From Bacteroidia bacterium (GTDB lineage: Bacteria; Bacteroidota; Bacteroidia; B-17B0; Aurantibacillaceae), in contig JAEUTO010000013.1 in assembly GCA_016787785.1 (NCBI GenBank), positions 62,001 through 126,000 of the forward strand: 64,000 nt of DNA, written 5' to 3'. Shown here piece by piece: positions 5,019-62,428 of this stretch (positions are counted from its first letter, which is position 1; the number at the start of each line of letters is the position of its first letter). The translations under genes were made by a program, and so were the position numbers. The notes beneath the pieces were generated by a model. That model was not told where the DNA came from. It saw only the letters and a program-made list of their open reading frames with translations, and searched no databases.

Positions 5019-5046
5019 AAAAAGTTCCCGTTTAGCGACTTTTTTT
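5017..5046 (+). terminator. Weak A/T-stem hairpin after the LEA-2-like gene
   Basis: AAAAAAAGT at 5017-5025 can pair with ACTTTTTTT at 5038-5046, leaving a 12-nt loop. The stem has only one G-C pair, so termination would depend mainly on the U tract. Weak evidence. Confidence 0.25.
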
Positions 5047-5163
5047 CCACAACTATCATTAAAAAATTACCGATCATGGCAACAATTCCTCACTAAATAC
5101 ACTTAAAGCTTATAAATGCTCGGCATTATATTAGCAAGCATTAGTATGTATTTAAAAAGGTAA

Positions 5164-5337: not shown

Positions 5338-5351
5338 TTAAAATATATATC

Positions 5352-5507
5352 ATGAGCAATCTACTATACATATTAGCAGTCATCCTTGTCATTTCATGGG
5401 CAATTGGCTTTTTTGCATACAGTGCAGGAAGCCTAATTCACATTTTACTTGTAATTGCATTAATCGCAGTTATCCTAAGAGTGATTAGAGGGAAAGAAGT
5501 GATCTAG
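5352..5507 (+). CDS. lmo0937-like small membrane protein, copy 2 (51 aa)
   Basis: ATG 5352 to TAG 5507 encodes 51 residues. It has the family layout: hydrophobic helix, WAIGFFAYSAGSLIHILLV turn-plus-helix, and a terminal RVIRG. It is closer to the canonical family sequence than the copy upstream. The two copies are clearly related (L-Y/N-Y-I-L-A-x-I-L-x-I; W-x-x-G-F-F; I-H-x-L-L), so the pair is probably a tandem duplication. A similar helical pair forms the C-terminus of the lipoprotein at 20352-20945. Confidence 0.7.
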   Translation: MSNLLYILAVILVISWAIGFFAYSAGSLIHILLVIALIAVILRVIRGKEVI

Positions 5508-5543
5508 CTCAGCCTATGATCATTAATTTTTACAAATCTACTT

Positions 5544-6380: not shown

Positions 6381-6386
6381 ATAATT

Positions 6387-41799: not shown

Positions 41800-43725
41800 T
41801 TAATACTCGCCGCTAACTTTTCGTTTATTTAAACTTTTAATTTTTGATACAGGTAACTTCTCCGGTAGGGTTTCAAATTCTATCTTTTCATTCAGCGATC
41901 TAATAAAAGTAAGCAAATGACTTTTTTCTTCTTTGGTCAAATGCAATGAATCAGATGACAAGGTTTGATTTGGAACACGAAGACCTTTTCCTACGCCACC
42001 CCCTGCATCATAAAAATCTATAACCTCCTCCAAAGTTCTGAATACTCCATTATGCATGTAAGGCGCTGTTTTCGAAGCGTTCCTGATGGTTCCTGTTCTG
42101 AAAGCATTTTCCATTTCGCTTGCGGGATTTATACCAAACCTACCCTTATCCAAACTTAACTCCTTGTAAGTAGTATCTTTTGGCACTCCCAAAACTTCAA
42201 ACTCAGAACTAACGTATGGCGGCTTTACACCGTTAAATTGTGGCGCAAAATGGCAGGTAGCACATTGCGCCTTACTCATAAATATATTAAACCCTTTTCT
42301 TATTGGTTCGTCAATTGTCTCCTTGTTATTCATGGCCTCATCAAACGGCGAATAATATTTGCTAAATTTTGCATAATAAAGTGTTATGGCTGATGAAATG
42401 TGCTCTATACTTATTTCTTTCTCCGCGGGTGTGTATTTTAAGAATTCTTCAAAAGCATTTTTATAGTCTTTGCAACTTAGCACTTTTTTTAATACTTCTT
42501 GTTCACTAGCTCCCAACTCTATTGGATTTGTAATAACGTCTTTTGTTTGATGCTGTAACGAGATATGTTTACCATCTAATAGGATCAGATGATTATACTG
42601 AGCATTAATAAGTGAGGGCGAATTACGCGGCAAAAAATTCTTACCATCAAACTGCAATGAAGTATTTGTTAATGTATCAGTAAAATAGTGGGTAGGTTTA
42701 TGGCAGGAAGCGCAACTTCGCAAATTATTTCCCGAAAGAATAGGATCATAGAATAATAATTTTCCGATCTTCTCTATTTCAGAAAGTACCTTTTGATCTT
42801 GCACCCGTAAATAAACTCCTTTCGGGTTTTGCCCTATATATAAATTCTTGCTAAAAATTGAGGTACTGTTTTTATTCAGAGAATAATCAACATTACTTTT
42901 AGTACTAACATTGTAAGTTTTTATCAATTGTTGATTAATAGTAAATAGCGGGTTGATATACTCCTTTATAAATGTATAATGATCAAACTGCTGCGGATCT
43001 GAAGGTTGTTTATTTACAAAATTTACCGTTGAGTTATACAATTGCAAATAATTATCTGGTATTGGCGTTGCTACAAAACTCGAGTTAAATGAATTGTATG
43101 TTTTGTTAACAGCTTCCAGCATCGCTCTTAATTCGGGGATTACTTTTTCACTTTCGGGGCACTCAAAGCCGGTAGTATAGATGGCCGCAAGATTTAACAA
43201 AAATAACCGGTTACATAAAAAAAAGTGATGATGTTCTTTTAACTTATTTGTAATAGAATCTGCATCAAAAACCCGTGTTGCATTTATAGATGAACGAATG
43301 AGATCCAATAAAACATTTTTATCAATATTTTTTTCATCAAGGTAAAGTGCAGCTAGCGTTAAACCTGCGCCCTCTCTTTTGTATGGCTTTTCAAATTTTT
43401 CAAAAACTTCTGTTTCCCATTCAACCGGTAAGGGGCCGTTAATTTTTTTGTAAGAGATGGGTTCAAGGTAACGAAACCAAAAATCCATGCTTTTTAAAGT
43501 AAGGCGTGTTTGATTTATTTGTGATCTTATTTTCTCTAAGTCCTTTATAGAACTTAAGTCGCTTTTTTCAATACATGCCACTAAAAGCGACTGACTGCTT
43601 TTGAAAATGGATAATTTTGTTTCGTAATCAGTAATGTAACCAGTAGCATCGCTTTTCTTATTAAACGAAAAAGTAACGCATGTTACAATCAGGAAAGAAG
43701 TGAACGTTATTATGTTTTTTTTCAT
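41800..43725 (-). CDS. Large di-haem cytochrome c peroxidase/MauG family protein
   Basis: 641 residues with a signal peptide (TFTSFLIVTCVTFSF). The first 300 residues form a helical domain I do not recognise; it faintly resembles imelysin-type domains. The C-terminal half carries two CXXCH motifs, SCASCHK and QCATCHF, with the family features LGKLLFYDPILSGNN, FLPRNSPSLINAQYN, RTGTIRNASKTAPYMHNGVF and a final NEKI. Members reduce peroxide or oxidise substrates in the periplasm. A homologue of similar layout is at 60488-62428. Upstream is a PhoX-like gene; downstream is a small cytochrome. Confidence 0.88.
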   Translation of the reverse strand: MKKNIITFTSFLIVTCVTFSFNKKSDATGYITDYETKLSIFKSSQSLLVACIEKSDLSSIKDLEKIRSQINQTRLTLKSMDFWFRYLEPISYKKINGPLPVEWETEVFEKFEKPYKREGAGLTLAALYLDEKNIDKNVLLDLIRSSINATRVFDADSITNKLKEHHHFFLCNRLFLLNLAAIYTTGFECPESEKVIPELRAMLEAVNKTYNSFNSSFVATPIPDNYLQLYNSTVNFVNKQPSDPQQFDHYTFIKEYINPLFTINQQLIKTYNVSTKSNVDYSLNKNSTSIFSKNLYIGQNPKGVYLRVQDQKVLSEIEKIGKLLFYDPILSGNNLRSCASCHKPTHYFTDTLTNTSLQFDGKNFLPRNSPSLINAQYNHLILLDGKHISLQHQTKDVITNPIELGASEQEVLKKVLSCKDYKNAFEEFLKYTPAEKEISIEHISSAITLYYAKFSKYYSPFDEAMNNKETIDEPIRKGFNIFMSKAQCATCHFAPQFNGVKPPYVSSEFEVLGVPKDTTYKELSLDKGRFGINPASEMENAFRTGTIRNASKTAPYMHNGVFRTLEEVIDFYDAGGGVGKGLRVPNQTLSSDSLHLTKEEKSHLLTFIRSLNEKIEFETLPEKLPVSKIKSLNKRKVSGEY

Positions 43726-43806: not shown

Positions 43807-45897
43807 TTAATGGCTTACAACCATTTCGATCTTAGTAGTTTTACTTCCTGAAACCACTTCAACAAAGTATAATCCGTTTTTAAGGTCGATAGTATTTAAT
43901 GCAATTGCATTTTCTCCTTTATCAATATTTTTTTCAACCGGAGATTTTACTTTTCTTCCTTGAAGATCATAAACATTTATTATAACTTTTCCACCGTTCT
44001 CGGTAACAACTTTTACGGTTGCCTCATCTCTTGTTGGATTTGGGTATAACGTTACTGATTCAGCTAAAACATTGTTTGAAGAAATTCCTGTTGTAACAAC
44101 TGCGTTACCATCAATTTTATAATCATACCATGTTTCAGAAATATCGGTATTTACGATTTGAATATTTGCTGAGCGAGTACCAGCCGCTGTTGGCGCAAAT
44201 TGAACAGTTAATGTTTGTGATGTTGCAGGAGCAATGGTCAAAGGTAAAGTTGGCGCACCAACAAATGTAAATTCACTTGCATTAGCACCCGAAAAACCCA
44301 ATTGCGTGATCACTAAATTACCCAAGCCTGTGTTTTGAATAACATAAGTTTTTGTTTGTGGGAAACCAATACCAACAGTACCAAAATTTGTATTATCACC
44401 TACTGAAGTTGTTGTTGAACCATCTATGATATTTGTTGAATTACCTTGAAGATTGATTTCAGGATTAACAATTGCTGTTGATGGGTTATACAAAGCAAGA
44501 ATCTGTCCACCTTCAACAACCGGTGCTGGAATTGCGTAATGCGCCTGATCAACAAACAAGAACATGCCCGGACCTAAAATTGACTGTGCGTCAAAAATAC
44601 CTGAAGCTTCTTCATCTTGTGTTAAAAAATTTGGTCCACCGGTGATAAAACGACTCGGGTCGTGTTGCGCAATTTGTACTAAGTTATCTGTTGCAATAGT
44701 GTATTGCCACATTTTTCCATTGTGTGCCTGGTTACCTACATCTTCTTGAATGAAGATATGACCAGAATTATCTACGGTAATATTATCCATCATTACCTGT
44801 CCTTCTGTACCGTCCAATAACGCTGTTATTGTTCCGCCCAATTCAGGATTCGTGATACTTGTAAAACTCAATTTCCATAAGCGACTTGGAGAAGTAAAAC
44901 CATTTGTGGTTACAAAATAAAAATTATTTGGATTAGACGGATCCCAAGCGCCATCTTCCGGACGCAAGAATTGTGTAACACCGGAATTTGTGCTTAATGT
45001 TTGTAGCGAAGCGCCTGTAATTGCAGAAACGTTTCCAAGATCAACTAAAGAAAAAGTTGTGTTCGCTGCGGGAAAACTCGCACTCACTTCCGTTAACAAT
45101 CCAGCAACAGCAACACCATACAATTTGCCATTAGTTAAACCGGCTTTATCAATTTCTGTTCCACTGTTGGTTTTTGTTCCAATATAAAAATAAACCTGCC
45201 CCGGTGTAGCATCATCTAAAGTTGCAACAATCGTTTTATTTTGCGAATACGGATTTGCCACTGCATTTTCAATTGAACATTTACCAAGAAATGGCAACTC
45301 ATAAGAAGTTCCGGCGTTCGGTCCTGATGCAATATGTGCCATTGCACGTCCTTCTGCACCAGACTCCTCCCCATTCATAAAAATGCGTTCTTGTGTTCCT
45401 AAACCTGTAAATACGTTCCAAAAGGCAGAAGTCGAAGGAAGATCACCTGAACAAAAACGAGTGAATGCAGCTAAGGTTGACGGAGTAGTTGCGTTATACG
45501 TAGTGTAAGAAGTGCCATTCCAAAGATTTACATTTTGAATTAGATCGGTACCACTTACAACAGCAAGAGTAGATTTATTTATGATCCATTTTGAAACGAA
45601 AGCTCCTGTTGAGCCATGGGCATGCACCGCACCTGCAGTATTGCCCATCTCATGATTGATCAACATTGAGAAAGTACCGTTTCCATTATCCCAGGCGCCT
45701 GCACCATCAAATAACCCTGAAGCTGTATAATTTCCAATTGATTGTGTCGCAGTAAAAATTGAAGTGATGGTAGAGTTTGCAATTGTTGGGTTAAGATACG
45801 GTGTTTGAGAACTGCTTGGTCCCGTTACCGATGTTTGTGCTAATGCTGTTCCGGCAGTAAATATGCCAAGTAAAAAAGTTTGTAAATAGTTTTTCAT
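43807..45897 (-). CDS. Secreted PhoX-like (DUF839) protein with choice-of-anchor D and T9SS sorting domains
   Basis: 696 residues from ATG 45897 (GTG 45921 is an alternative but less likely). Signal peptide GIFTAGTALAQ. Residues about 35-470 resemble PhoX/DUF839 proteins: GNGTFSMLINHEMGN, RIFMNGEESGAEGRAM, GQVYFYIGTKTNSG, FLRPEDGAWDPSNPNNFYF and NITVDNSGHIFIQED. Next is a choice-of-anchor-D domain (about 480-600; GLGNLVITQLGFSGANASEF, LTVQFAPTAAGTRS). The C-terminal T9SS domain starts at VTLYPNPTRDEATVKV. PhoX enzymes are Ca/Fe-dependent alkaline phosphatases. Whether the metal ligands are all kept cannot be settled by eye. Confidence 0.78.
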   Translation of the reverse strand: MKNYLQTFLLGIFTAGTALAQTSVTGPSSSQTPYLNPTIANSTITSIFTATQSIGNYTASGLFDGAGAWDNGNGTFSMLINHEMGNTAGAVHAHGSTGAFVSKWIINKSTLAVVSGTDLIQNVNLWNGTSYTTYNATTPSTLAAFTRFCSGDLPSTSAFWNVFTGLGTQERIFMNGEESGAEGRAMAHIASGPNAGTSYELPFLGKCSIENAVANPYSQNKTIVATLDDATPGQVYFYIGTKTNSGTEIDKAGLTNGKLYGVAVAGLLTEVSASFPAANTTFSLVDLGNVSAITGASLQTLSTNSGVTQFLRPEDGAWDPSNPNNFYFVTTNGFTSPSRLWKLSFTSITNPELGGTITALLDGTEGQVMMDNITVDNSGHIFIQEDVGNQAHNGKMWQYTIATDNLVQIAQHDPSRFITGGPNFLTQDEEASGIFDAQSILGPGMFLFVDQAHYAIPAPVVEGGQILALYNPSTAIVNPEINLQGNSTNIIDGSTTTSVGDNTNFGTVGIGFPQTKTYVIQNTGLGNLVITQLGFSGANASEFTFVGAPTLPLTIAPATSQTLTVQFAPTAAGTRSANIQIVNTDISETWYDYKIDGNAVVTTGISSNNVLAESVTLYPNPTRDEATVKVVTENGGKVIINVYDLQGRKVKSPVEKNIDKGENAIALNTIDLKNGLYFVEVVSGSKTTKIEMVVSH

Positions 45898-46023
45898 TTT
45901 GTTTTTGTTTTGATTTGTCACAAAAATACTTCGGCGATCAAATGGATATCATTACTTATACTTAATCAAATTATTAAGATTATTTCATCGAAGGTGATGA
46001 TTAATTTATTTGATAATATTAAA

Positions 46024-46911
46024 TTAACCTTTAAAACCGTCTCCTGTAATTGCGGTAATAGACAAGTTCGTGTTTTCAAAAACAACATGCTTGTCTTCAA
46101 CAGTTGGCTCTCCATCAAAATGAATTGTATCCTTAACATCCCTTTTAATAACAACGTTACTTGTTACGTACGTTTCAATTCTTCCGCTTAAGTGTGCTTT
46201 TTTACCAAGGATCTTCATCATCAATCCAGGCAAATGAAAAACATTAAAAGGCTTTAAGATCACGACATGAAACAAGCCATCATTTATTTTTGCCTCGGGT
46301 GCGATGTAAAAATCATTTCCATACTGCCCGGCATTAGCAACGGTAATTAAAAAAGCTTTTCTTTCAATAGTTTGTCCATTGAACGTTAAGGAATAATTTT
46401 TTGCACGATACTTAAACAATTCGGTAATAGTGATCTTGACATAACTTTGTAAACCACGTTTTACGGATTTGGTAAACAGGTTTCCAATATGTGCGTCAAA
46501 CCCTATACCGCTCGTGCAAAAAAAAGGTATACCATTAGCGGTTCCGTGATCAATTGTTATTTTATTCCCTTTCGCGATCTGTTTTATCGCTTCTTCTACA
46601 TCCATAGAAATACCAAGAGTTCTGGCTAAACCGTTACCGGAGCCTGCAGGAATGATTCCTAAAGAAATAGTTGTGCCCAACAAACTTTTTGCAACCTGGT
46701 TAACCGTTCCATCGCCACCAACAGCTACAGCATCTGTATAATCCTGCGAGTGCAAAATATCCAAAACTTCTTTAAAATGATCTTTATCTTTCCATATTAC
46801 TATTTGGTAATAAATGTTTTGAGGAAATTCTTTTCGGATCGTATCTATTAAGCGCTCAGAAATTTTTTTACCCGCGTTGGGGTTCACAATAAACAATAAT
46901 TTTCTTGGCAT
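46024..46911 (-). CDS. Diacylglycerol/lipid kinase (DagK/YegS family)
   Basis: 295 residues, soluble or peripheral. DAGK catalytic signatures VAVGGDGTVNQVAKSL (about 65-80) and LGIIPAGSGNGLARTLG (about 95-112), with the N-terminal NPNAGKK loop. The C-terminal lobe has YGNDFYIAPEAKINDGLFHVV and a final IHFDGEP. It phosphorylates diacylglycerol or a related lipid with ATP. It is the third gene of an operon, 1 nt after the glycosyltransferase stop, so it competes for or recycles the DAG produced by the first gene. Confidence 0.9.
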   Translation of the reverse strand: MPRKLLFIVNPNAGKKISERLIDTIRKEFPQNIYYQIVIWKDKDHFKEVLDILHSQDYTDAVAVGGDGTVNQVAKSLLGTTISLGIIPAGSGNGLARTLGISMDVEEAIKQIAKGNKITIDHGTANGIPFFCTSGIGFDAHIGNLFTKSVKRGLQSYVKITITELFKYRAKNYSLTFNGQTIERKAFLITVANAGQYGNDFYIAPEAKINDGLFHVVILKPFNVFHLPGLMMKILGKKAHLSGRIETYVTSNVVIKRDVKDTIHFDGEPTVEDKHVVFENTNLSITAITGDGFKG

Positions 46912-46912
46912 A

Positions 46913-48010
46913 TTAAATACTTATAATTTCGCTGTAGATCCTGTGTTTGGCATTTGCTACCCAGTTTTTAAACCAGGGGTTATTTCTGTCGTAGGTGAGC
47001 GAAAAATTAGCCAGCTTACTAAGATCAAATTTGTCGGAGAAAATACCGGCACCAGCTTTGTAAGCATCTCTTGAATTACAAAACTGTTCATAATGACCCT
47101 GAATAGGAACCATTAAAACTGGTTTACCTAAATACATAGCTTCGCATACACTTTCAAAACCAGCGCTGCTAGCTAACCCCTTGGCTTTACTCATCATCTC
47201 TAAAAACAACGTATCATTAATAGCATGAACGAATAACTTCTCTTTATCAAAGCTATAATTGCTATATATTTTAGCGGGTTGATCTGTAAAGCAATGCAAT
47301 TCAATTTCAGGATTTGCTTTATGCCATTCGAGCAACTCTTCAAAATAGCCATTGTTTACCAGGTATACCAAATAAAAATCATTGTGTTTTGTTTCTAATT
47401 CAAAGATCTCTTTTCTTAAAAGTGGTGGCACAACAATTACATCGTCATTATTTGTATGTATCTTATAAAAAGAAAGTGCTAGATTTTTGCTTGAGCCGGT
47501 TGCAGTTAATTTTGTGAAAAATTTTATAGATGCTTTATCCAGCCAGCGCTTCTCCGGGAATTCGAAATCAGGATGAAAATAAATGTACTGATGTGCCACG
47601 CAGATCATTTTTATTTTTGGTTTGTAAAACCGATAATACAAACCAATCAGTAGGTCAAAAAAGTTAATGACAACATCAGGCTGATGTTCTTTCATTAACT
47701 CGTCAATGGTTCTTAAACTTTGTTTAAAGGTTTTGATCTTTTTAAAATTATGAATTACTGACTTGGTAATGTTTATGCTTTTATTGTTTTTATCAGTTAC
47801 AAAATTTGGACTCTGCAACTGTATAATAGGAGATTTTATTTTTTCGAAGAAGAATTTTGGTATATCTCTTTTACCGCTTGAGCCAAGTAAAACCGCGCAA
47901 ACGGTATGCCCTTGTTCAATAAGCAGGTCGTACATGCTCATTGCTTGCGTCATATGACCCCTACCTTCGCCCTGAACGGCTAAAATATATTTTTTAGGAT
48001 TGTTCTGCAT
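46913..48010 (-). CDS. GT28/MurG-like glycosyltransferase, probable glycolipid synthase
   Basis: 365 residues. N-terminal glycine-rich acceptor loop VQGEGRGHMTQAMSMYDLL, followed by a Rossmann lobe. The donor-binding lobe has GLASSAGFESVCEAMYLGKPVLMVPIQGHYEQ and N-x-R shortly after, the pattern of MGDG-synthase/MurG-like GT28 enzymes. No signal peptide; peripheral membrane attachment is likely. It overlaps the PlcP-like gene by 17 nt and precedes the DAG kinase by 1 nt. I infer that it glycosylates diacylglycerol; the sugar is unknown. Confidence 0.8.
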   Translation of the reverse strand: MQNNPKKYILAVQGEGRGHMTQAMSMYDLLIEQGHTVCAVLLGSSGKRDIPKFFFEKIKSPIIQLQSPNFVTDKNNKSINITKSVIHNFKKIKTFKQSLRTIDELMKEHQPDVVINFFDLLIGLYYRFYKPKIKMICVAHQYIYFHPDFEFPEKRWLDKASIKFFTKLTATGSSKNLALSFYKIHTNNDDVIVVPPLLRKEIFELETKHNDFYLVYLVNNGYFEELLEWHKANPEIELHCFTDQPAKIYSNYSFDKEKLFVHAINDTLFLEMMSKAKGLASSAGFESVCEAMYLGKPVLMVPIQGHYEQFCNSRDAYKAGAGIFSDKFDLSKLANFSLTYDRNNPWFKNWVANAKHRIYSEIISI

Positions 48011-48830
48011 GTTTATTTATTGTTACGCCTTGCGGCAGAATTTCTTTAATAGATTCTTTTTTACTTTTCTTAACCTTAGGAACTAATTGTGATAGCCAGT
48101 CCTGATAATAGATAATTTTCCAGTTGCCTTCATTATCTTCAACTAAAGCTGTTAAACTTTCTACCCAATCTCCTGAGTTTAAATATTCGATACCATTAAT
48201 TGTTTTTATTGCCGGTTGATGGATGTGTCCACAAATAATACCGTGGCATCTACGTGCCTTCGCAACTTTCGCTAGTTCATTTTCAAAATCGGAAATAAAT
48301 GAAACAGCCGATTTTACTTTTGCCTTTACTACCTGCGACAAAGAATAATAAGGTAAGCCACGTTTCTCGCGATAAGTATTGTAATGCCGGTTTAACCATA
48401 ATAAAAAAGTGTAACCCACGTCGCCAAGTTTGGCGATCCATTTTAGTTTTGTAGTGATGTTATCAAAAAGGTCACCATGAGTGACAAAATATTTTTTTTC
48501 TACACCATGATGAATGTAGTATTTACGAATAGAGAAATTGCCAATACGTAAGGGCATTATTTGTTCCAGAAAATCATCGTGATTGCCGCGCAAATAAACT
48601 ATTTTACATTTCTTTTTACCTGTAAGGCTAATAATATGCTTAAAAAAATTACTGTGTTGCTTTGTCCATTTGCCCGACTTTCGTAACTGCCAGCCATCAA
48701 CGATATCACCATTTAAAATAAGTGTTTCGCATTTGTGGTGCTTTAAAAAGTTAACTACTTCTTTTGCTTTGCTGGCCTTTATGCCTAAGTGAATGTCGGA
48801 TAGAACAATGGTTTTGTAGAATGTTTTCAT
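47994..48830 (-). CDS. plcP: PlcP-like metallophosphoesterase (phospholipase C-type)
   Basis: 278 residues. Metallophosphatase motifs in order: SDIHLG (10-15), GDIVDGW, RGNHDDF, THGDLFD, and GHIHQP. The stretches RGLPYYSLSQVVKAKVK, FENELAKVAKARRCHGIICGHIHQPA and YLNSGDWVESLTALVE match the PlcP group that cleaves phospholipids to diacylglycerol in phosphate-starved bacteria. Those proteins are commonly misnamed UDP-2,3-diacylglucosamine pyrophosphatase (LpxH). No signal peptide, so it acts at the cytoplasmic face. First gene of an operon with a glycosyltransferase (17-nt overlap) and DAG kinase. Direct activity is not shown by sequence. Confidence 0.78.
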   Translation of the reverse strand: MKTFYKTIVLSDIHLGIKASKAKEVVNFLKHHKCETLILNGDIVDGWQLRKSGKWTKQHSNFFKHIISLTGKKKCKIVYLRGNHDDFLEQIMPLRIGNFSIRKYYIHHGVEKKYFVTHGDLFDNITTKLKWIAKLGDVGYTFLLWLNRHYNTYREKRGLPYYSLSQVVKAKVKSAVSFISDFENELAKVAKARRCHGIICGHIHQPAIKTINGIEYLNSGDWVESLTALVEDNEGNWKIIYYQDWLSQLVPKVKKSKKESIKEILPQGVTINKHAEQS

Positions 48831-48893
48831 TAAAACAGTTTTACAAATTTGATCATCTTACATTTCTAAAATATTACTTGTAAATTATTAAAA

Positions 48894-48928
48894 AATTAAA
48901 AACCTGCTCCGAATAAACAGAGCAGGTT
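48894..48928 (-). terminator. Rho-independent terminator of the choice-of-anchor-I gene
   Basis: AACCTGCTC (48901-48909) pairs with GAGCAGGTT (48920-48928) with a 10-nt loop; on the - strand it is followed by a T-rich run. It separates the large secreted-protein gene from the plcP operon downstream. Confidence 0.75.
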
Positions 48929-48955: not shown

Positions 48956-51900
48956 TTATTCTACTATTAGTTTTTTAGTAACGTTTAAATTATCGCTTTG
49001 AATGTATAGTGTATAAATTCCGTTATCAAAAGAAGTAACATTAATTACAAGGTTTTTATTATCAGAAATTTTTGTTGAATAAACTTTCTTTCCTAATATA
49101 TCATATACCTCTATTAATTTTAGCGAATTATCTGCGAATTGCAAATTCACTTCGTTACGCGCTGGATTCGGATAAAGATTGAAATCTATTGACGAAACTA
49201 TTTCATTACTACCTGTGCATAAAGAAACGTTTTGTACAAAGCTGGTTACATTGGTACACGAATTTACCCCCGTAGCAGCAACTGTGTAAGTTGTATTTGT
49301 TGTTGGATTAACTGTGTACGACGCTGCATTTGGTCCACTTGTCCAGCTATATGTAACAGCGCCACTTGCTGTTAAAGTTGCTGTTTGTCCAACACATATC
49401 AAACTCGATGAACTAACAACGTTAATTGTTGGCGAAGGGTTTACACTTACACTTTGTGATAAAGAACTAACCGAACAATTTGTGCCACCGGTTATAGCAA
49501 CAGAATAATTACCGCTGGCAGTTGCCATAACTGTATTTGATGTTGCACCAACGATTGGTGTTCCATTACTACTCCACTGATAATTTAAACCAGAAGTAAA
49601 TGGGACGCTAATTATCGGTCCGGCTGTAGAACATAATCCTGTTGTACTTCCAGCAACACTCAAAGAACTTGAAACAGGAGAAGAGCAGCCAGGAATACCG
49701 TAAATTGAAAGCGAGCTGCTGATCTCGTTAGCGGCAATAACAAGGTGTTGGCCATTTGGGCTTTGTGCCTGTGGAATAAAAATAATTCCTTCTGCGCCTC
49801 TATCAGGACCATTACTTACAAAAGATCTGTTATTTACATATGTTACATACACAGGTGCTGCTGGATTAGTAATATCATAAACCATAATGCCACCAATACG
49901 CTCAACAGCAATAAACGCAAAGGTATTTGTGCCTATTGCACCAATTGCAATTCCTTCCGGCTCCGGACCTTTATCGTCACTTCTGTCTTTCTTTACTATA
50001 GTTGTATTACTTGCGTTAAACATTACAGAAAAAGAATTTGTTGAAGTAATTAATTCCATTTGATCGCCGCTGTCATAAACTAAATTTCCTGTATTGGCAT
50101 TCCAGATCGAAAAGGATCGTCCACCGTATACATAAATTGAATCAATATCTCCATCATTATCAGTATCTCCTAACTTATCCGTTGCATTTAAACGGCCCAA
50201 AACTGAATTGTTTTGTAGGTCTGTGGCATTTGGGAATTTTGTAGCATCAAGTAATAATGTACTTATTCTTTTTTCCTCTGAAAATCCGGTATACGCTCTT
50301 GAATCACCCTCATTAGCTGTAACTAAATAATTTACACCGCCAACAGAGTAACTTGCAATTGCATCGGGTAAATACAAACCTTTTATTGGAAAATTAGCAA
50401 TGTTAACTCCCTTTGTAACATTTGAAGCATCTATTCCGTTGTTTAATAAATTTAGATTTTTTGCGCCAAGTGGTTTAATATAGTTAATTGCGTTATTAGT
50501 TAGGTTTATTTCTACTATAGCATTATTTTCTTGTAAAGTAACCCATGCTTTTGAATCGTCTTTTGCAATAGAAATATATTCGGGTTCAAAATCTTTCGAT
50601 GCAGATGCCCCTAACCCATATATTCTAATGCCTTGTGATTTAAGTGCTGGTTCTTGTCCGTTGTAAACTGTAAAAGTTACGTGCGCTACATTCGTTTGTG
50701 ATAAAGCGGCAATGCCACCTGAAATATCTACAATACTCACCGAACCATCAGGATCTGACGTATACGAATCATTTGGTTCCCCTTCGTTCGCTGTAAAAAC
50801 TTTTGTTCCTGCATGATTGAAGGTTATCATATCAGGCATCATTCCAACTTTTACTTGCTTAAGAAATAACCCATTCTTATCAAAGAAAACTACTTTTCCA
50901 CTATCTTGTGGGTTTGTTCCTCCAATAGCTATTGAACTATTTTCTATGGCACAAGCCACGGTACCATTTTTAACTGCAACTGAATTAATATTTCCATAGG
51001 TAGTGATATTAATGCTGGCAATTAGTGTTGGTGTAGAAGGATTAATAAAATCAATAATGTCTAATTTACCACCAATACTATTTGCAATGTATAAACGTTG
51101 TGTGCTTGGATCATGTACAACTATCTCGGCTGAATTAGAGCCTGAAACAAAATTCTGATAGCTTCCCAATAAATTTAAACTAATTGTGTTGGCCGCAGCA
51201 GGTGCAACTTTATCATCATCTAAAATATAAAAAGTGCATTGGTTTGTTGATCCAATAGTGGCATTCATTTGTGGCACTAATTTTAATATTGCATATTCTG
51301 CACTTTCAAGAATTGCATCATTTGCAAGATTTATAGAAACTGAGGCAGTTGTATTTACCGGTGCGTTGGCAGCAAATGTAACTGTAGCAACGGCAATCGT
51401 GTAATCACTACTGGTTGCATTTGACCAGGCCGATGCTACAACGCTGACAGCACTAATTGAAGTGCTTGAAACGGTTTGTTTTAAATAGATAGTTGCTGAA
51501 GAACTGCTTTCAACTACCGAAGTATCATTACTCAAAAAAGAGATAGTTGCAGGAGCAGCAGAAGTGGTTAGTGAAACAGAGCTGCTAGCGTTTGTTTGCG
51601 AAGCAAAAGGCGTTACTGAAAAAGTTCTAGGCTGAGTCCATGTATTATTTGTTGTATTAAAAATTCCGGTGGCAGTAATAACATCCGGACCCGGATCTGT
51701 TGTGAAAAAATTTCCCGTATTTAATTTACCACCAGAATAAAGATCGTTAACTGGCATTTGATAACCGTCAACGCCTGCATTAACAATGGCTGTTCCTAAA
51801 CTCGTACCAAAAAACAAAGCATCTTTTGGAACCGATGAACTAGTTATTGCCGCCACGGGAAGATCAAAAACGGCAACACCATCTGCATTTGCTCCTCCAT

Positions 51901-52303
51901 TTCCAAATACGCCTGCAGCAGCAGCTGTTCCTATCCCCCCATCCCCATTCGTGTTTTTTACGTTTATAACTCTCAATTTCTGCCCAGCCGGCACCATACA
52001 ACTTCCGCCAACATATACAACGTTGCCCGCTGCTACTGTTCCTGAAGTTACGGCAAAAGCATAAGTAATGGAGCCACCCGCGATCCAACCGGAGGTTGTT
52101 GCGTTTCCGTTATTATTAACTATTATAGTATATGGTGTTAAACCAAAATTAATTGGTTTAGTTGCAATTAATTCTACAAACTCGTGGCAACTATCTGTGC
52201 CGGCCGGATTCGGAAAAAATTCGCTGATAACCAAACCAGGATTTTGTGCGCTAATTTTAATTACTAAAAATGTAATTAATGTGATAAATAAATTTCTGTT
52301 CAT
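48956..52303 (-). CDS. Secreted LTD, Calx-beta, choice-of-anchor I, T9SS protein
   Basis: 1115 residues. Signal peptide (LITFLVIKISAQ). Lamin-tail-like domain (about 20-170: LVISEFFPNPAGTDSCHEFVEL). Calx-beta-like domain (about 245-360; NDAILESAEYAILKL). Choice-of-anchor-I beta-propeller (about 370-870; IVVHDPSTQRLYIANSIGG, KVFTANEGEPNDSY, GDTDNDGDIDSIYVYGGRSF, GPEPEGIAIGAIG). Ig-like repeats with CSSPV/CS/CVG disulphide patterns fill about 875-1030, and the T9SS sorting domain starts at LYPNPARNEVNLQF. The anchor-I region is often found in proteins annotated alkaline phosphatase or phytase-like, though a role is unproven. It is monocistronic, with its own terminator. Confidence 0.82.
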   Translation of the reverse strand: MNRNLFITLITFLVIKISAQNPGLVISEFFPNPAGTDSCHEFVELIATKPINFGLTPYTIIVNNNGNATTSGWIAGGSITYAFAVTSGTVAAGNVVYVGGSCMVPAGQKLRVINVKNTNGDGGIGTAAAAGVFGNGGANADGVAVFDLPVAAITSSSVPKDALFFGTSLGTAIVNAGVDGYQMPVNDLYSGGKLNTGNFFTTDPGPDVITATGIFNTTNNTWTQPRTFSVTPFASQTNASSSVSLTTSAAPATISFLSNDTSVVESSSSATIYLKQTVSSTSISAVSVVASAWSNATSSDYTIAVATVTFAANAPVNTTASVSINLANDAILESAEYAILKLVPQMNATIGSTNQCTFYILDDDKVAPAAANTISLNLLGSYQNFVSGSNSAEIVVHDPSTQRLYIANSIGGKLDIIDFINPSTPTLIASINITTYGNINSVAVKNGTVACAIENSSIAIGGTNPQDSGKVVFFDKNGLFLKQVKVGMMPDMITFNHAGTKVFTANEGEPNDSYTSDPDGSVSIVDISGGIAALSQTNVAHVTFTVYNGQEPALKSQGIRIYGLGASASKDFEPEYISIAKDDSKAWVTLQENNAIVEINLTNNAINYIKPLGAKNLNLLNNGIDASNVTKGVNIANFPIKGLYLPDAIASYSVGGVNYLVTANEGDSRAYTGFSEEKRISTLLLDATKFPNATDLQNNSVLGRLNATDKLGDTDNDGDIDSIYVYGGRSFSIWNANTGNLVYDSGDQMELITSTNSFSVMFNASNTTIVKKDRSDDKGPEPEGIAIGAIGTNTFAFIAVERIGGIMVYDITNPAAPVYVTYVNNRSFVSNGPDRGAEGIIFIPQAQSPNGQHLVIAANEISSSLSIYGIPGCSSPVSSSLSVAGSTTGLCSTAGPIISVPFTSGLNYQWSSNGTPIVGATSNTVMATASGNYSVAITGGTNCSVSSLSQSVSVNPSPTINVVSSSSLICVGQTATLTASGAVTYSWTSGPNAASYTVNPTTNTTYTVAATGVNSCTNVTSFVQNVSLCTGSNEIVSSIDFNLYPNPARNEVNLQFADNSLKLIEVYDILGKKVYSTKISDNKNLVINVTSFDNGIYTLYIQSDNLNVTKKLIVE

Positions 52304-53179: not shown

Positions 53180-55003
53180 CTAATTTAAAGTTAGGTTGGT
53201 CAGCTCAGAGATCTCACGGTTGTGAAGTATTCTTTCTTTAATATTTTTCTTTTTGTAATTTGTTGGTAATAATACGGTAAAAGTTGTCCCAACACTTTCA
53301 TCACTCTCAATACCGATTGCACCATGAAGTTTTTCAACCGAACACTTTACAATATAAAGCCCAAGCCCTGTGCCATTTATAAGATTATTTGCTCTAAAGA
53401 ACATATCAAAGACTCTATCGTGATATTGTTTATTTATTCCGATCCCATTATCCGAAACTTCGATTCTTAACATGTCATCATTTTGATCGACAACCGAAAT
53501 TTTCAGAAAACTGAAACTTGATCTTTTGGTTGCATACTTGATACTATTTTCCATTAAATTCCTGAATATGGCTTTTACCAGTGCAGGCGAAGAAAAAAAT
53601 TGGTTCTTGGTTTTAATCTCCAGAGAAAAAATAATATTATCCGCATCCTTCAGGGATCTTAATTCGGAATATACAGACCGTATTAATTCATCGAGATTTA
53701 TTGACTCAGGTTTTATCTCCTCGCTTCTTACATTCGTTATTATACCAAGTTCATCGGTTGTAGCAATTAATTTTTCCCATGATTGGTTTATTTGAGAAAG
53801 ATACCCTTTCATTTCAGGGTCTGATGCTTTTGTTAAAGCAACATTAGTAAGCTCTTTTACCGCTATTAATGGATTGCGGATATCATGTGAGGTAGCATAA
53901 AAAAGCATTTCCAGATCTTTATTTGATAACTTAAGAGATGTCATTTGGTTAACTATGTGTTGTTCCATAATGCTGAAATTTGTTGCCAAAACATCTATTT
54001 CATATGAGGAATTATTAATAGGAAGTATCGTCCTTGCAGTAAAATCGCTCTTTACAAACTCATCTATTTTTTGTTTTAAATGTGTTATCGACCTTGAAAC
54101 TTTTTTAGAAATTGTTAATGCAGAAAAAACACCTATCAAAATAAAAACAAAACCAATTGCAAGGAATACTAGTTTTATATGAGCCAAAGCAAGTTTTTCC
54201 TTTTGCGCGGAAAATTCCACGAGCGCAGCCAAAGAAATCTCGATCTTATTTGAAATATCATCAATTTGTTTTTTAAGACCTAATCCACTCTTTAAACCTA
54301 GCCGTTTCTCATATACTGTAAGATTATTAAATTCGTTAGAATAACTATTCAGCGTTTTTATTATTTTACTTTTTTTGTCGGAACTAATATCATTTTTAAT
54401 TGCAAGATCATCCTTAATATTGCTTATTAATTTATTATGCTTCGCGATATATGGTTCTTCCTGACGAATAATAAAATCCTTTTCGTGTCTGCGAAGTTGT
54501 AATATATTTACTAAGCCGATCTCTGCCTGGTAATTTTCAAGATCATGTGCAAAATTTCGCATATTTCCTTCAATACCGTAATCTTTAAATCCCCTGATAA
54601 GTATCTGCCTGAACATTTCGGCGGTGAGTACTTCATATTTGGAAAATACTATTTTAAGATCAATGATTGAATCATTTAATCCGAAATTATTCACTTTCTG
54701 AAGGGTATTAAGATCGCTTAATGCCTGTTCAATATTATTACATATTCTATTATGTGCATTGATCAAATTGCTTTTACGTGATTCGAAAAAAACCGGGTTA
54801 ATCGTCTCGTTCTCAAAAAACTCGTGTGTTACTTTGATGTCCTTTAAAAGTAATACATGCGCACTCTCTGCATTCTGGGTAATGTTTGAAAGTGAGTCTT
54901 TATTCTTTTCGAAATAATTAAAAATTATTACTGAGGTTATTACTGTTATTAACACGAATAACAAAAATATTGCTAATAATTTTGAGCGAATGGTAGTGAA
55001 CAT
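53180..55003 (-). CDS. Orphan transmembrane sensor histidine kinase
   Basis: 607 residues. Two membrane helices (about 8-28 and 277-297) bracket a long all-helical periplasmic domain of about 245 residues, like four-helix-bundle or NIT-type sensors. A HAMP domain follows (about 300-350; KQKIDEFVKSDFTART). HisKA has His373 in YATSHDIRNPLIAV; the ATPase has N box FRNLMENSIKYA, G1 DNGIGIN and G2 GTGLGLYIV. No response-regulator gene adjoins it. Divergent from the purple-acid-phosphatase-like gene, so a link to the phosphate island is possible but inferred. Confidence 0.88.
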   Translation of the reverse strand: MFTTIRSKLLAIFLLFVLITVITSVIIFNYFEKNKDSLSNITQNAESAHVLLLKDIKVTHEFFENETINPVFFESRKSNLINAHNRICNNIEQALSDLNTLQKVNNFGLNDSIIDLKIVFSKYEVLTAEMFRQILIRGFKDYGIEGNMRNFAHDLENYQAEIGLVNILQLRRHEKDFIIRQEEPYIAKHNKLISNIKDDLAIKNDISSDKKSKIIKTLNSYSNEFNNLTVYEKRLGLKSGLGLKKQIDDISNKIEISLAALVEFSAQKEKLALAHIKLVFLAIGFVFILIGVFSALTISKKVSRSITHLKQKIDEFVKSDFTARTILPINNSSYEIDVLATNFSIMEQHIVNQMTSLKLSNKDLEMLFYATSHDIRNPLIAVKELTNVALTKASDPEMKGYLSQINQSWEKLIATTDELGIITNVRSEEIKPESINLDELIRSVYSELRSLKDADNIIFSLEIKTKNQFFSSPALVKAIFRNLMENSIKYATKRSSFSFLKISVVDQNDDMLRIEVSDNGIGINKQYHDRVFDMFFRANNLINGTGLGLYIVKCSVEKLHGAIGIESDESVGTTFTVLLPTNYKKKNIKERILHNREISELTNLTLN

Positions 55004-58680: not shown

Positions 58681-60534
58681 ATGAAAAAACTCTTTCTCTT
58701 AATTTGTATTTTTTTGGTGAAAGATCTTTACCAACAAAACAATCATAAAATTACTTTACAACCCTGTTTAAAACCTTTCTATCATGGGGTGGCATCGGGC
58801 GATCCGATGAGCGATCGCGTAATTATCTGGACACGTGTAACGCCTGACACGAATCAAATCAATCAATCTATTATTGTTGACTGGAAAATTGCGACGGATA
58901 CAGGAATGGTAAATGTTATAAATCAGGGCACATTGCTAACCGATTCTACAAAAGATTTTACAGTAAAAGTAGATGCAACCGGGCTAACACCAAATAAATT
59001 TTATTTTTATGAATTTAAAGCCAATGGGAAGTACTCACCGCGCGGGCGGACAAAAACAACACCTATTGGCGCGGCAGATAGTTTGCGTTTTGCGCTGGTT
59101 TCCTGTGCTAATTTTGAGGCGGGTTTTTTTAATTCTTATGCAAGCCTGTTAGCACGCGAAGATTTTGACGCAGTGCTTGCACTTGGAGATTATATTTACG
59201 AATATAATACCGGAGGCTATTCACCCAATCCTGCCACCCCAACAAGAACATGGTCGCCTGCAAACGAAATTATTTCTATAGCAGATTACCGCATGCGTTA
59301 TTCAACTTACAGGTTGGATCTGGACCTTCAACGATTACATCAACAATTCCCGTTTGTAATTGTGTATGATGATCATGAATTTGCCAACGACGCCTGGATG
59401 AATGGTGCGCAAAATCACCAGGCTGGTGAAGGACCCTGGAATGCCCGAAAGCAATGCGCACAAAAAGCCTTTTTTGAATGGTTGCCTGTACGCGTAACCG
59501 GAACTACCAACCCGTACCAGATCTATAGAAAAATAAAATATGGTAATCTTGTAGATCTGATAATGATGGATACGAGGGTTGAAGGTCGCGATCTGCAAGC
59601 GGGTACGTCAGGAGCAACAGTAACAAGCCCCACACGACAACTAATAGGAACAACACAGTTTAACTGGTGGAAAAACAAAATGGATTCATCTACGGCACAG
59701 TGGAAGGTGTTGGGACAGCAGGTAATGATGGCGCCCCTAGCGGTTTTTGGCAATGGCTTTAATGGTGATCAGTGGGATGGCTATCCTGCACAAAGAACAA
59801 ATATTTATAACCACGTGCTTACTAATAATATTTCAAACATGGTAGTCATAACTGGTGATATTCACTCGTCATGGGCAAACGATCTTCCAACTGCTTCATA
59901 CAATAGCAGTACAGGTGGCGGTTCGGCTGGCGTGGAGTTTGTTACCCCAAGTGTTACCTCTCCGGGCATGAGTATTCCTTTAGGGGCTGCTGCGATCATG
60001 GCTGCCAATGGACATATTAAATATGCAAATCTTTCCGCGCATGGTTACGTAATAATGGATATAAATCAAAACAGAACGCAAGCCGATTGGTATTATGTTA
60101 CAACAATAGATAACCCAAGCACAGCCTACACTTATGCTGCTTCGTTTAAAGTGAATAATTTTCAAAGGAATTTAAATCCGGTAGCAAGCGCTTCTTTACC
60201 AAGACCAAGTATTTATTATATTAAAGCGCCTATTTGTCCACGCCCATCATTAATAACTTCGTTAAACGATCAGTATAAAGAAAACATTTTCCTTTCAGTT
60301 TATCCAAATCCTACTATGGATTATGTTACGATACAATTTAATAATAGTGATAATGGTAAAGTGAAAATTTCTGTGTGCGATATTAATGGCAAAATTGTTT
60401 ACGATTATTCAGAAACAATAGAACAAGGAATTAATAAACACTATATTAATTCAAACTCTTTTAACAAAGGGATTTATTTTATAAAAATTGAAACTGTTGG
60501 TAATTCGGAGACTATTAAATTCATTAAGCAGTAA
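58681..60534 (+). CDS. phoD: PhoD family alkaline phosphatase with T9SS domain
   Basis: 617 residues. Short signal region (LFLLICIFLVKDLY). PhoD landmarks: FYHGVASGDPMSDRVIIWTR (N-terminal domain), LVSCANFEAGFFNSY, ALGDYIYEYNTGGY (metal-binding Asp), DYRMRYSTYRLD, YDDHEFANDAWMN, MDTRVEGRD and ITGDIHSSWANDLP (Asp and His of the Fe/Ca site). The final 80 residues form a T9SS sorting domain starting at LSVYPNPTMDYVTIQF. It hydrolyses phosphodiesters and monoesters extracellularly. It overlaps the start region of the peroxidase gene that follows. Confidence 0.94.
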   Translation: MKKLFLLICIFLVKDLYQQNNHKITLQPCLKPFYHGVASGDPMSDRVIIWTRVTPDTNQINQSIIVDWKIATDTGMVNVINQGTLLTDSTKDFTVKVDATGLTPNKFYFYEFKANGKYSPRGRTKTTPIGAADSLRFALVSCANFEAGFFNSYASLLAREDFDAVLALGDYIYEYNTGGYSPNPATPTRTWSPANEIISIADYRMRYSTYRLDLDLQRLHQQFPFVIVYDDHEFANDAWMNGAQNHQAGEGPWNARKQCAQKAFFEWLPVRVTGTTNPYQIYRKIKYGNLVDLIMMDTRVEGRDLQAGTSGATVTSPTRQLIGTTQFNWWKNKMDSSTAQWKVLGQQVMMAPLAVFGNGFNGDQWDGYPAQRTNIYNHVLTNNISNMVVITGDIHSSWANDLPTASYNSSTGGGSAGVEFVTPSVTSPGMSIPLGAAAIMAANGHIKYANLSAHGYVIMDINQNRTQADWYYVTTIDNPSTAYTYAASFKVNNFQRNLNPVASASLPRPSIYYIKAPICPRPSLITSLNDQYKENIFLSVYPNPTMDYVTIQFNNSDNGKVKISVCDINGKIVYDYSETIEQGINKHYINSNSFNKGIYFIKIETVGNSETIKFIKQ

Positions 60535-62428
60535 GAACAAACGTTTACTGTGTATTACGGGAATTCAATTCATTGCTTTAGAAGCTATATTTCTAAGCTT
60601 TTCGTTTATTGATCTTAAACCACAAAGCACTGGGATAATTATTGAAACCCGTTTTGAAAAATTAATTCAAAATATAGATAGTCTGGAGAAAGTAGTCTCG
60701 GAAAACAGGCCTATCTCTTTACAACAGCACTATTATTCGCTTTCGCGCAAAAACTACAAGTACATAGAAACAGTTATAGAATATGTAGCACCTTTTTACG
60801 CAAAATATTATATCAACGGCCCACCAATAAAAAAACACGATACCGAAAACGGTAACAAGGTTTTCGAACCACACGGTTTTCAATTACTGGAACCGGTTTT
60901 TTTTTTAAATGAGCAGGGTCTTTCAAAGGAAGAAATACTCTACGAAATAAAACTTCTCAAGGAAACGCTCGTTCAGACTAGGAAAAAGTACAAAAGTGTA
61001 GTTCCAAGAATCGAACAATATTTTGATATGATCCAAATGGAATTACTGCGAGTGATCAGTTTAAACATTAATGGTTATGACTGCGCTATTACCAAAGAAA
61101 ATATCAATGAAAGTATCTATATTTTTGATGGGATAGAGGAAGTGCTTGAAGGGATCGAAGATGTGAGGTTAAAGGGCGCGTCTCTGGGTGACGTGAAAAA
61201 ACTTATCTCTGATTCAAAAAAGTATTTAGCCCTTAATAAAAATTATGACTCCTTTAATCGCCTCCATTTTATTGTTAATTACGTTAAACCACTTTATTCG
61301 TTATTGAACAAAATGCGCACTGAGTTAAAATTATCCAATACGCCGGTAAATTATGCCATCAATTTCGGTGAAAAGAACTTATTTGGCGATGCTTTTTTTA
61401 ACCGCTATTACTTTTCTGTTAATATTTCAGATTCTGCAAACGTTGCGCCTCAAGTAGAATTAGGAAAAAATCTATTTTTCGACCCCCTGTTATCCGGAAA
61501 TAATAAAAGAGCTTGCGCCTCCTGCCACAAACCCGAATTTGCTTTTTCAGACACCATTGCAAAAAATTCTGAATATAATATGGCAGAGCCCTTAAAAAGA
61601 AACACTCCATCATTATTGAATGTTATGTATCAAAAGAATTTCTTTTATGATGGCAGATCTCTTCAGTTAGAAGACCAGGTAAGCGATGTGTTACATGCAA
61701 AAAATGAAATGAACTCGATACCACAAGATGTAATAAATAAGTTAAAGCAAAGTGATGACTACAAAAACCTTTTCAGGAAAGCCTTCAAAGGAACCGCAGA
61801 TACGGCAATAACTTTTTATGCAGTTTTAAAAGCAATCTCAGAGTTTGAAAAAAGCCTGGTATCCATGAATTCCAGATTCGATAAATATCTTAAAGGAAAC
61901 AAAAGCGCTTTGGATAAAAAAGAAATAAACGGCTATAATGTTTTTGCCGGGAAAGCATTGTGTGGCTCATGTCATTTTTTGCCTTTATTTAATGGACTTG
62001 TACCACCAGTATTCAACGATAATGAATTTGAAGTGATTGGTACTTTTTCAAAGCCAGATTCAAAAAAGATAGATAGTGATAGCGGACGAATTCTAATTAC
62101 GAAAAAATTCATTCATGCGTTTTCGTTTAAAACGCCCAGCGTAAGAAATATAGAGCACACTTTCCCATATATGCATAATGGGGCTTACAGAACTCTTGAC
62201 CAGGTGATCGAATTCTACAATAAAGGTGGCAGCTCAGCGGGTAGCCAAAAAATTGAAAACCAAACATTGCCGTTCGACTCATTACAACTATCGCCAAAAG
62301 AAAAGGCGGATATAAAATCTTTTTTATTAAGTCTGTCGGATAATCCTTTTAAAAATATAGCACCCAAAAAATTGCCCGTTATAAAAGACCCTGTTTTAAA
62401 CAATAGAAAAATTGGTGGCGAGTACTAA
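60488..62428 (+). CDS. Second large di-haem cytochrome c peroxidase/MauG family protein
   Basis: A 646-codon frame from TTG 60488. No ATG lies in the first part, so the start is uncertain. A TTG at 60497 is another option, and both overlap the PhoD 3' end. A membrane/signal-like stretch (ITGIQFIALEAIFLSFSF) follows. The N-terminal 300 residues are helical and unassigned, as in the paralogue at 41800-43725. Haem motifs are ACASCHK and LCGSCHF. Further family landmarks are LGKNLFFDPLLSGNN, RNTPSLLNVMYQ, FKTPSVRNIEHTFPYMHNGAY and a terminal RKIGGEY shared in form with the paralogue (RKVSGEY). Periplasmic. Confidence 0.8.
   Translation: MKLLVIRRLLNSLSSKNKRLLCITGIQFIALEAIFLSFSFIDLKPQSTGIIIETRFEKLIQNIDSLEKVVSENRPISLQQHYYSLSRKNYKYIETVIEYVAPFYAKYYINGPPIKKHDTENGNKVFEPHGFQLLEPVFFLNEQGLSKEEILYEIKLLKETLVQTRKKYKSVVPRIEQYFDMIQMELLRVISLNINGYDCAITKENINESIYIFDGIEEVLEGIEDVRLKGASLGDVKKLISDSKKYLALNKNYDSFNRLHFIVNYVKPLYSLLNKMRTELKLSNTPVNYAINFGEKNLFGDAFFNRYYFSVNISDSANVAPQVELGKNLFFDPLLSGNNKRACASCHKPEFAFSDTIAKNSEYNMAEPLKRNTPSLLNVMYQKNFFYDGRSLQLEDQVSDVLHAKNEMNSIPQDVINKLKQSDDYKNLFRKAFKGTADTAITFYAVLKAISEFEKSLVSMNSRFDKYLKGNKSALDKKEINGYNVFAGKALCGSCHFLPLFNGLVPPVFNDNEFEVIGTFSKPDSKKIDSDSGRILITKKFIHAFSFKTPSVRNIEHTFPYMHNGAYRTLDQVIEFYNKGGSSAGSQKIENQTLPFDSLQLSPKEKADIKSFLLSLSDNPFKNIAPKKLPVIKDPVLNNRKIGGEY

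Follow-up and report, generated by a model that had tools for sequence, protein, structure and literature searches.

The 64,000-nt stretch of DNA analysed here, referred to below as the window, comes from a Bacteroidia bacterium of the Aurantibacillaceae (contig JAEUTO010000013.1, positions 62,001 to 126,000) and contains at 46024-48830 three minus-strand open reading frames (ORFs): a PlcP-like phosphoesterase (gene 1, 47994-48830, 278 aa), a GT-B glycosyltransferase of family PF13528 (gene 2, 46913-48010, 365 aa) and a DgkB/YegS-type lipid kinase (gene 3, 46024-46911, 295 aa). Genes 1 and 2 share 17 nt (47994-48010) and genes 2 and 3 lie a single nucleotide apart (46912), the ORF coordinates thus bearing out the tight, same-strand packing described in an initial annotation of the locus. 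On the same strand, a TTTG at 48844-48847, 17 nt ahead of the start codon of gene 1 and used as the anchor of the promoter alignments, is a predicted -7 element, and is preceded by a candidate Pho box of 11-bp direct repeats at 48860-48901. Beyond this, a minus-strand hairpin of the upstream gene at 48903-48926, recognised by eye (CCTGCTC...GAGCAGG then T-rich DNA), is terminator-like and would set the operon apart from that gene. The three-gene arrangement is not due to chance, as its order is retained in 26 of the 29 nearest loci. Below, loci and records used for comparison carry L numbers, and contigs of the window's own genome carry C numbers.

Gene 1 matches the Metallophos profile PF00149 (53.4 bits, Pfam profile search), and its residues D12, H14, G41, D42, N83, H84, D85, H118, G201, H202 and H204 are invariant in an alignment of 38 rows, in which the calcineurin-like metal-binding motifs are intact. 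By BLAST it is 35-43% identical to six proteobacterial PlcP-type proteins, including those of P. aeruginosa and S. meliloti, 28.9% identical to a seventh, from Thioclava, and 25% identical to the LpxH-type protein encoded in the same genome, while no significant alignment with E. coli LpxH is found (E 0.15 or more). A maximum-likelihood tree of 75 rows contains a branch with 100/99 support that places all 17 LpxH rows on one side and gene 1 with the PlcP rows on the other, with the caveat that E. coli LpxH and the Thioclava protein are long branches and that the seven proteobacterial rows do not form one clade. The separate LpxH that the initial annotation had proposed looking for elsewhere in the genome appears, from a profile search of the contigs, to be the gene at C10:32813-33559, which groups with E. 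coli LpxH in the tree and is present in 57 of 60 class genomes; it is called LpxH from the tree and its conservation, because on the LpxH profile (cut-off 134 bits) it scores 80.7 bits and gene 1 33.1, both under the curated threshold. Gene 1 also misses the LpxH family scores of NF003743 (34.1 against 134 bits) and TIGR01854 (23.7 against 190.35 bits), a weak test in that the genome's other candidate is itself under the cut-off. The best structural matches of its predicted model (predicted local distance difference test, pLDDT, 75.3) are LpxH structures (Z 17.9, root mean square deviation, rmsd, 4.2 over 199 residues), and the fold alone did not separate PlcP from LpxH. The tree split and the separate LpxH-type gene led us to reject LpxH as the identity of gene 1, and a PlcP-like rather than LpxH-like classification, which the annotation had favoured, is supported.

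The two proteobacterial references with functional support, from P. aeruginosa and S. meliloti, were identified by their surroundings. After the gene for the P. aeruginosa protein come a glycosyltransferase gene and, on the opposite strand, an adenylate cyclase gene, which we take to be PA3217; from these neighbours the reference itself is taken as PA3219. The S. meliloti protein is located near a LuxR regulator and an acyl-homoserine lactone (AHL) synthase, by which its locus was identified, and is presumably SMc00171 beside sinR/sinI, a tag absent from the papers listed by the literature search. The two references are 46.6% identical, which also served to identify the S. meliloti locus; PMC8528852 gives the value as 46%. 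Two oddities in the records were encountered: L151 (CP090106.1), an S. meliloti record of 3.7 Mb under the label pSymB, contains the region with PlcP, the AHL synthase and the LuxR regulator and resembles a mislabelled chromosome from its size and content; and a plcP homologue is present on three P. aeruginosa plasmid records, including L152 (NZ_CP137508.1), with the glycosyltransferase seen in the one examined, either because a plasmid carries a segment of the chromosome or because of the assembly.

The best family match of gene 2 is Glyco_trans_1_3 (PF13528, 106.1 bits), with a C-terminal match to Glyco_tran_28_C (PF04101, 28.8 bits against a cut-off of 22). It falls under the MurG equivalog cut-off (27.4 against 250.25 bits, over the C-terminal part only) and under that of its closest named NCBI family, TIGR00661 (MJ1255/VC2487; 114.8 against 195.9 bits), and has sub-threshold matches to profiles for MGDG synthase and diglucosyl-diacylglycerol synthase (MGDG_synth, 15.4 against 25 bits; PRK13609, 15.2 against 500). 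Hence the description of gene 2 as a GT28/MurG-like enzyme in place of Agt stands as regards Agt and the C-terminal PF04101 domain, but PF13528 is the better family and the MurG match is weak and partial. BLAST gives no notable alignment with P. aeruginosa Agt1 (E 2.3), which bears GT4-type domains where gene 2 bears PF13528, and gene 2 as an Agt ortholog was rejected on the missing alignment. By contrast, gene 2 is 44% identical to the gene directly 3' of the PlcP homologue on a Parabacteroides record. Its predicted model (pLDDT 92.8) matches GT-B enzymes, namely YojK (Z 24.7, rmsd 3.6, 325 aligned), a sterol glucosyltransferase (Z 24.1) and MurG (Z 23.4). As these matches score almost alike and have epimerases of this fold among them, the acceptor and the sugar cannot be read from them, and the absence of MGDG synthase among the 50 structural matches listed excludes nothing.

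Gene 3 combines DAGK_cat (PF00781) with YegS_C (PF19279) and reaches the DgkB/YegS lipid kinase family score (TIGR00147, 130.9 bits against a cut-off of 118.65), with alignments to solved DgkB/YegS/BmrU members at E 1.7e-17. Its nucleotide and catalytic motifs are intact (GGDGT at residue 65, PAGSGNGLA at 88 and DGE at 266). A second kinase, 56% identical to gene 3, is encoded on contig C7.

Conservation of gene order was counted by hand in 80 loci, those most similar to gene 1 among 260. A close relative of gene 2 lies directly 3' of gene 1 in 61 of these and about 1.6 kb off in one more; five have a distant relative directly 3' (in L045 the type was checked with Pfam only), and in 13 no relative is detectable. 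Of 296 genomes sampled from the whole phylum, 130 contain a match to gene 1 and 111 a match to gene 2. In 83 of the 116 Bacteroidota genomes where gene 1 is matched strongly (E under 1e-40), a member of the gene 2 superfamily is found near it on the 3' side and the same strand, within 1.4 kb downstream; 24 of these pairs have the close type of glycosyltransferase and 59 the distant type. Conversely, of the 31 close-type gene 2 relatives found, four are in genomes with gene 1 elsewhere and three in genomes without gene 1. The survey of gene order that the annotation had proposed thus upholds the PlcP-glycosyltransferase pair widely and the three-gene order among the nearest loci.

The kinase has a narrower distribution, being the third gene in 30 of the 80 loci: 26 of the 29 nearest, as mentioned above, and four of the 51 others. 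Among loci of the genus, which overlap partly with the 80-locus set (identical rows in the kinase tree), it lies directly 3' in 20 of 30 and elsewhere in 10 of 30, a kinase being present in 30 of 31 genomes. A quick kinase tree, in which several branches are long, clusters the operonic kinases and forces at least two label changes. Together, the counts and the tree mark the kinase as an accessory gene, possibly recruited more than once. The family match and the gene order in the nearest loci agree with the inclusion of a lipid kinase in the module, but a lineage-restricted gene does not define it.

Other partners of PlcP were seen in the survey. In L024, L045, L046, L051 and L059, PlcP and a distant-type glycosyltransferase are followed by an apparent glycoside hydrolase family 1 gene, confirmed as PF00232 in L024 and L045. 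SFR2, a plant family 1 enzyme, remodels galactolipids, so a part in lipid remodelling is possible for this arrangement as well. Marivirga-type loci encode, after PlcP, a conserved protein of some 341-351 aa (L047:8879-9904, and similar in L055, L063 and L072), for which L047, the only one run, gave no Pfam match; it is a possible PlcP partner.

The promoter region of gene 1 carries a periodic signal that the initial annotation missed. Conserved T..A positions are repeated at 11-bp intervals in the window and 27 near relatives, at -51, -40, -29 and -18 in a register counted from the TTTG of TTTGTAAAAC, which stands 17 nt ahead of the start in most. Rows were aligned on TTTG, with TTTG[TC]AA preferred, so part of the invariance of this element is due to selection, and L026 and L029, which have no TTTG, were dropped from the near table. 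A matrix built from the 27 relatives, with the window excluded, scores the window site at 28.9 and the next best site in the window at 17.0, and 20 random sequences of 64 kb peaked at 10.3 to 19.5; the value of 28.9 is not independent, as close relatives are in the training set.

For wider comparisons, a generic unit of three 11-bp repeats was weighted by hand after viewing the near-relative promoters, which therefore do not form an independent test; the independent sets are the distant PlcP loci, phoX, choice-of-anchor-I, pst and PhoB-locus genes. L040, which contains a run of N, was left out of the distant set, and genes without 90 bp of mostly intergenic DNA upstream were dropped from part of the comparisons. 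The 46 distant gene 1 promoters exceed 301 controls at period 11 (p = 1.6e-18, a value which, like the others given for the box, is too small because related loci are treated as independent), and at periods 9, 10, 12 and 13 p is 0.058 or more. For phoX (six promoters against 130 controls) p is 2.8e-4 at period 11 and, in this small set, 0.03 at period 9, while 14 choice-of-anchor-I promoters give p = 0.001 at period 11. Across 32 gene 1 promoters from loci of the phylum, period 11 scores above each other period tested (p 1.5e-4 or less), with a weaker signal in the 13 Flavobacterium-like promoters (medians of 8.7 at period 11 and 6.6 at period 10).

The box is also observed before pst operons. 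In four congeners with a PstB over the cut-off, the first gene of the operon scores 16.2, 15.0, 8.0 and 3.4 at -51, the last of these being no better than some other genes of the same loci (up to 4.7), and three of the four keep -51 when all registers are allowed. The first of these operons was confirmed by Pfam (porin O/P, periplasmic binding protein, two permeases and PhoU), and the other three were read from gene order and PstB, their first gene having no Pfam match. This first gene encodes about 430 aa (L251:9979-11274, L252:9993-11291 and L253:2441-3730) where L250 has a phosphate-selective porin.

Around the PhoB-like gene, the box is in phase at three of five ORFs, including a TonB-dependent receptor and a protein with a type IX secretion system (T9SS) sorting tail, and it is not in phase at the promoter of the PhoB-like gene itself. 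Overall, the best repeat is exactly in phase at 17 of 25 phosphate-linked genes and 13 of 76 controls (Fisher p = 4.3e-6). Three near-copy choice-of-anchor-I genes (one in L028, two in L029) were omitted from this test beforehand and L030 added, and two of 27 genes were dropped for lack of a TTTG. Genes 2 and 3 lack a separate box, 0 of 29 and 0 of 28 reaching the control 95% mark, as expected in one operon. In the promoter scan no good box is found before the second kinase on C7, the LpxH-type gene has no TTTG to anchor on, and the MauG gene promoters give no signal (n = 8, p 0.57). Two controls divergent from the PlcP operon, L022:6829-7791 (15.7) and L024:3630-7766 (13.3), have high box scores and are possible Pho genes. 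From these comparisons the 11-bp repeats are read as a candidate Bacteroidota Pho box. This predicted Pho-type promoter 5' of gene 1, shared with pst and phoX, lends sequence evidence to the role in phosphate starvation that had been proposed for the operon.

A further association absent from the initial annotation is that the operon adjoins phoX and a MauG-like gene, a pair that in F. johnsoniae is induced by phosphate depletion. The next gene downstream (43807-45921, minus strand) encodes a PhoX-type protein (PF05787, 28.1 bits against a cut-off of 24, covering part of the profile only) with a T9SS sorting tail (PF18962), preceded by box-like 11-bp repeats at 45938-45979 found in repeat scans, also on the minus strand. 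The gene 3' of phoX, on the same strand, encodes a MauG-like di-haem peroxidase (41800-43725, PF03150, 127.5 bits), and the upstream neighbour of gene 1 is a minus-strand gene for a choice-of-anchor-I protein with a T9SS tail (48956-52303, PF22494, 526.6 bits), which has a box in register. A phoX gene lies near the operon in seven near relatives, on the same strand in L003 and on the opposite strand in L009, L010, L015, L017, L019 and L042. The window also contains a second MauG-like gene (60488-62428) and, 5' of the choice-of-anchor-I gene, a histidine kinase (53180-55003, HATPase_c) with a 39% relative near the operon in L026.

The genome of the window has no PstB over the cut-off, and of the 21 genus genomes searched, among them that of the window, four have one; its best PhoB-like gene is on contig C14 (L249:6806-7537, 231.3 bits). 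Beside the PhoB-like gene, L249:1932-3620 and 3764-6685 encode a TonB-dependent receptor and a protein with a T9SS tail, 5' of which stand four or five 11-bp repeats in tandem, a cluster resembling the F. johnsoniae PhoBR cluster as described in PMC8115612, where PhoB is beside a TonB-dependent transporter.

In the tabulated phosphate-depletion response of F. johnsoniae (PMC8115612), the fold changes, apparently log2, are 8.59 for PlcP (Fjoh_4577), 5.42 for the PF04101 glycosyltransferase Fjoh_0541 in the PhoBR operon, 12.50 for a PhoX-like gene and 9.58 for a MauG-like gene of the same locus. This system resembles the present one in belonging to the same phylum, in the induction of PlcP and a GT28-C-type glycosyltransferase, listed there as lipid remodelling, and in having PhoX-like and MauG-like genes in one locus. 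It differs in that its PlcP is an orphan, its glycosyltransferase is in the PhoBR operon, and its table contains no kinase (PMC8115612). A link between gene 2 and this PhoBR-operon glycosyltransferase was looked for in three Flavobacterium-like loci with a distant-type glycosyltransferase (L143-L145) and found no support there: no PhoB-PhoR gene pair was seen beside the enzyme, L144 having a single hybrid kinase ORF some 2 kb from it and L145 a fragment at its edge. The distant type is found in a further 22 of 61 genomes of the Flavobacterium-like genus.

The PlcP-Agt pathway of S. meliloti, Phaeobacter and P. aeruginosa (PA3219-PA3218), examined in the last with mutants including one of PA3219 (PMC8528852), likewise has a phosphoesterase with a glycosyltransferase directly downstream and a Pho-type promoter. 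Here, however, the glycosyltransferase is a PF13528 rather than a GT4 enzyme with no alignment to Agt1, a lipid kinase is added, and the box is unlike the CTGTCAT-type Pho box that PMC8528852 quotes. Compared with the proteobacterial Pho box more generally, the direct repeats share an 11-bp period, a position upstream of the promoter core and an occurrence before pst genes, but their core is near TTAAC/TTAAT instead of TGTCAT and is paired with a TTTG -7 element. Gene 3 has the PF00781 and PF19279 domain pair of DgkB/YegS/BmrU kinases and differs in sitting in a PlcP operon. The presence of PlcP in the phylum, its induction and its general position beside a glycosyltransferase are already known (PMC4796936, PMC8115612, PMC8528852). 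Among openly licensed papers, none was found uniting plcP, a diacylglycerol kinase, a glycosyltransferase and phosphate, and the titles and abstracts of the matches listed give no Pho box for this phylum. B. fragilis PhoB binds a 512-bp pst promoter fragment (PMC3547664), a paper in which the words 'consensus' and 'direct repeat' are absent. The promoter box is the most useful new element of the finding.

Taken as a whole, the locus is best read, with reasonable confidence, as a phosphate-starvation operon for lipid replacement comprising PlcP, a glycosyltransferase and a kinase. Genes 1-3 would form one transcription unit turned on by a PhoB-type regulator when phosphate is scarce. The PlcP-type enzyme would remove the phosphate head groups of membrane phospholipids, leaving diacylglycerol, to which the PF13528 glycosyltransferase would add a sugar, giving a phosphorus-free glycolipid and taking the place of Agt in Proteobacteria. 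The lipid kinase probably returns surplus diacylglycerol to phosphatidic acid, which would limit diacylglycerol build-up and preserve the precursor of the remaining phospholipids. Gene order, families, conservation and the common promoter box are observed directly; family membership and PlcP biology point to the first two enzymatic steps and PhoB control, the return step carried out by the kinase is less well supported, and the assignments of acceptor lipid, sugar and kinase substrate or role are the least certain. Of the initial proposal, PlcP, a separate LpxH, the PlcP-glycosyltransferase pair and, from sequence, phosphate control are retained, but not the MurG/GT28 placement or the kinase as the defining part.

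Several observations count against this reading. Among the distant loci the register is blurred, 19 of 46 promoters exceeding the control 95% mark with no sharp peak; eight of the 25 phosphate-linked test genes are out of register, and seven of the 16 controls with a score of at least 8 share the phase, being either unrecognised Pho genes or chance. The phoX of the window is in register (-52) by hand only, the automatic scan having chosen another TTTG, and in some of the near relatives the first repeat, being T-rich, merges into a terminator-like tract. The PhoB candidate, at 231.3 bits, is under the curated cut-off of 296.2. The fold of gene 2 is common to enzymes with many different acceptors, and a kinase made together with PlcP could cause a futile cycle. 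In Dokdonia MED134, plcP is induced and the membrane contains diverse aminolipids (PMC4796936), and in 'Labilibaculum euxinus', of the same phylum, head groups are stable at reduced phosphate, the plcP status not being stated in the relevant part of the paper (PMC12927429).

Among other explanations, a quite plausible one accepts the PlcP-glycosyltransferase glycolipid but has the kinase act on another lipid, such as ceramide, or merely ride along. The DAGK_cat family has kinases with other lipid substrates, and the kinase takes third position in no more than 30 of 80 loci and lies elsewhere in a third of the genus loci; its tight packing in the nearest loci, its intact motifs and a tree permitting more than one recruitment argue the other way, and diacylglycerol is the simplest substrate, as the partner is predicted to produce it. 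It is unlikely that the glycosyltransferase has an acceptor other than diacylglycerol (ceramide, an aminolipid or a pigment), with PlcP mainly feeding diacylglycerol and phosphate elsewhere. The aminolipids of Dokdonia (PMC4796936) would suit this, as would the structural neighbours of gene 2 acting on sterols, macrolides and cell-wall lipids, but the two genes are closely adjacent in 83 of 116 genomes and the P. aeruginosa glycosyltransferase beside plcP makes a diacylglycerol glycolipid (PMC8528852).

It is less likely still that the 11-bp repeats are bound by another regulator of the OmpR family and are not a Pho box. Such regulators commonly bind direct repeats about 10-11 bp apart, and several controls score well too; against this, the box stands before pst operons (clearly in three of four), phoX and three of five genes around the PhoB-like regulator, and is not found before the second kinase or the LpxH-type gene. 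Finally, gene 1 can hardly be a second or variant LpxH of lipid A synthesis, as the common database label of its relatives (UDP-2,3-diacylglucosamine diphosphatase) would have it, since the shared fold with its LpxH structural matches (Z 17.9) and the sub-threshold score of the genome's other candidate (80.7 against 134 bits) are outweighed by the 100/99 tree split, by that candidate's grouping with E. coli LpxH, higher LpxH score and wide conservation, and by the predicted Pho-type promoter of gene 1.

Beyond the phosphate-starvation lipid-replacement operon itself, a bolder extension is possible, though less likely than not: that Bacteroidota may have a Pho box of their own (tandem 11-bp TTAAC/TTAAT repeats at -51, -40, -29 and -18 to a TTTG -7 element), driving a phosphate-starvation regulon with a phylum-specific PlcP and non-Agt glycosyltransferase pathway, to which the kinase has been added in one lineage as a two-way diacylglycerol switch. 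For a large environmental phylum the operon proposes a way of saving phosphorus in membranes that can be tested, and it corrects a misleading annotation as LpxH. The presence of the kinase raises the question of whether the flow of diacylglycerol in phosphate starvation is one-way or reversible, and the promoter box would allow prediction of the Pho regulon across Bacteroidota, even where, as in this genome, no PstB over the cut-off is found.

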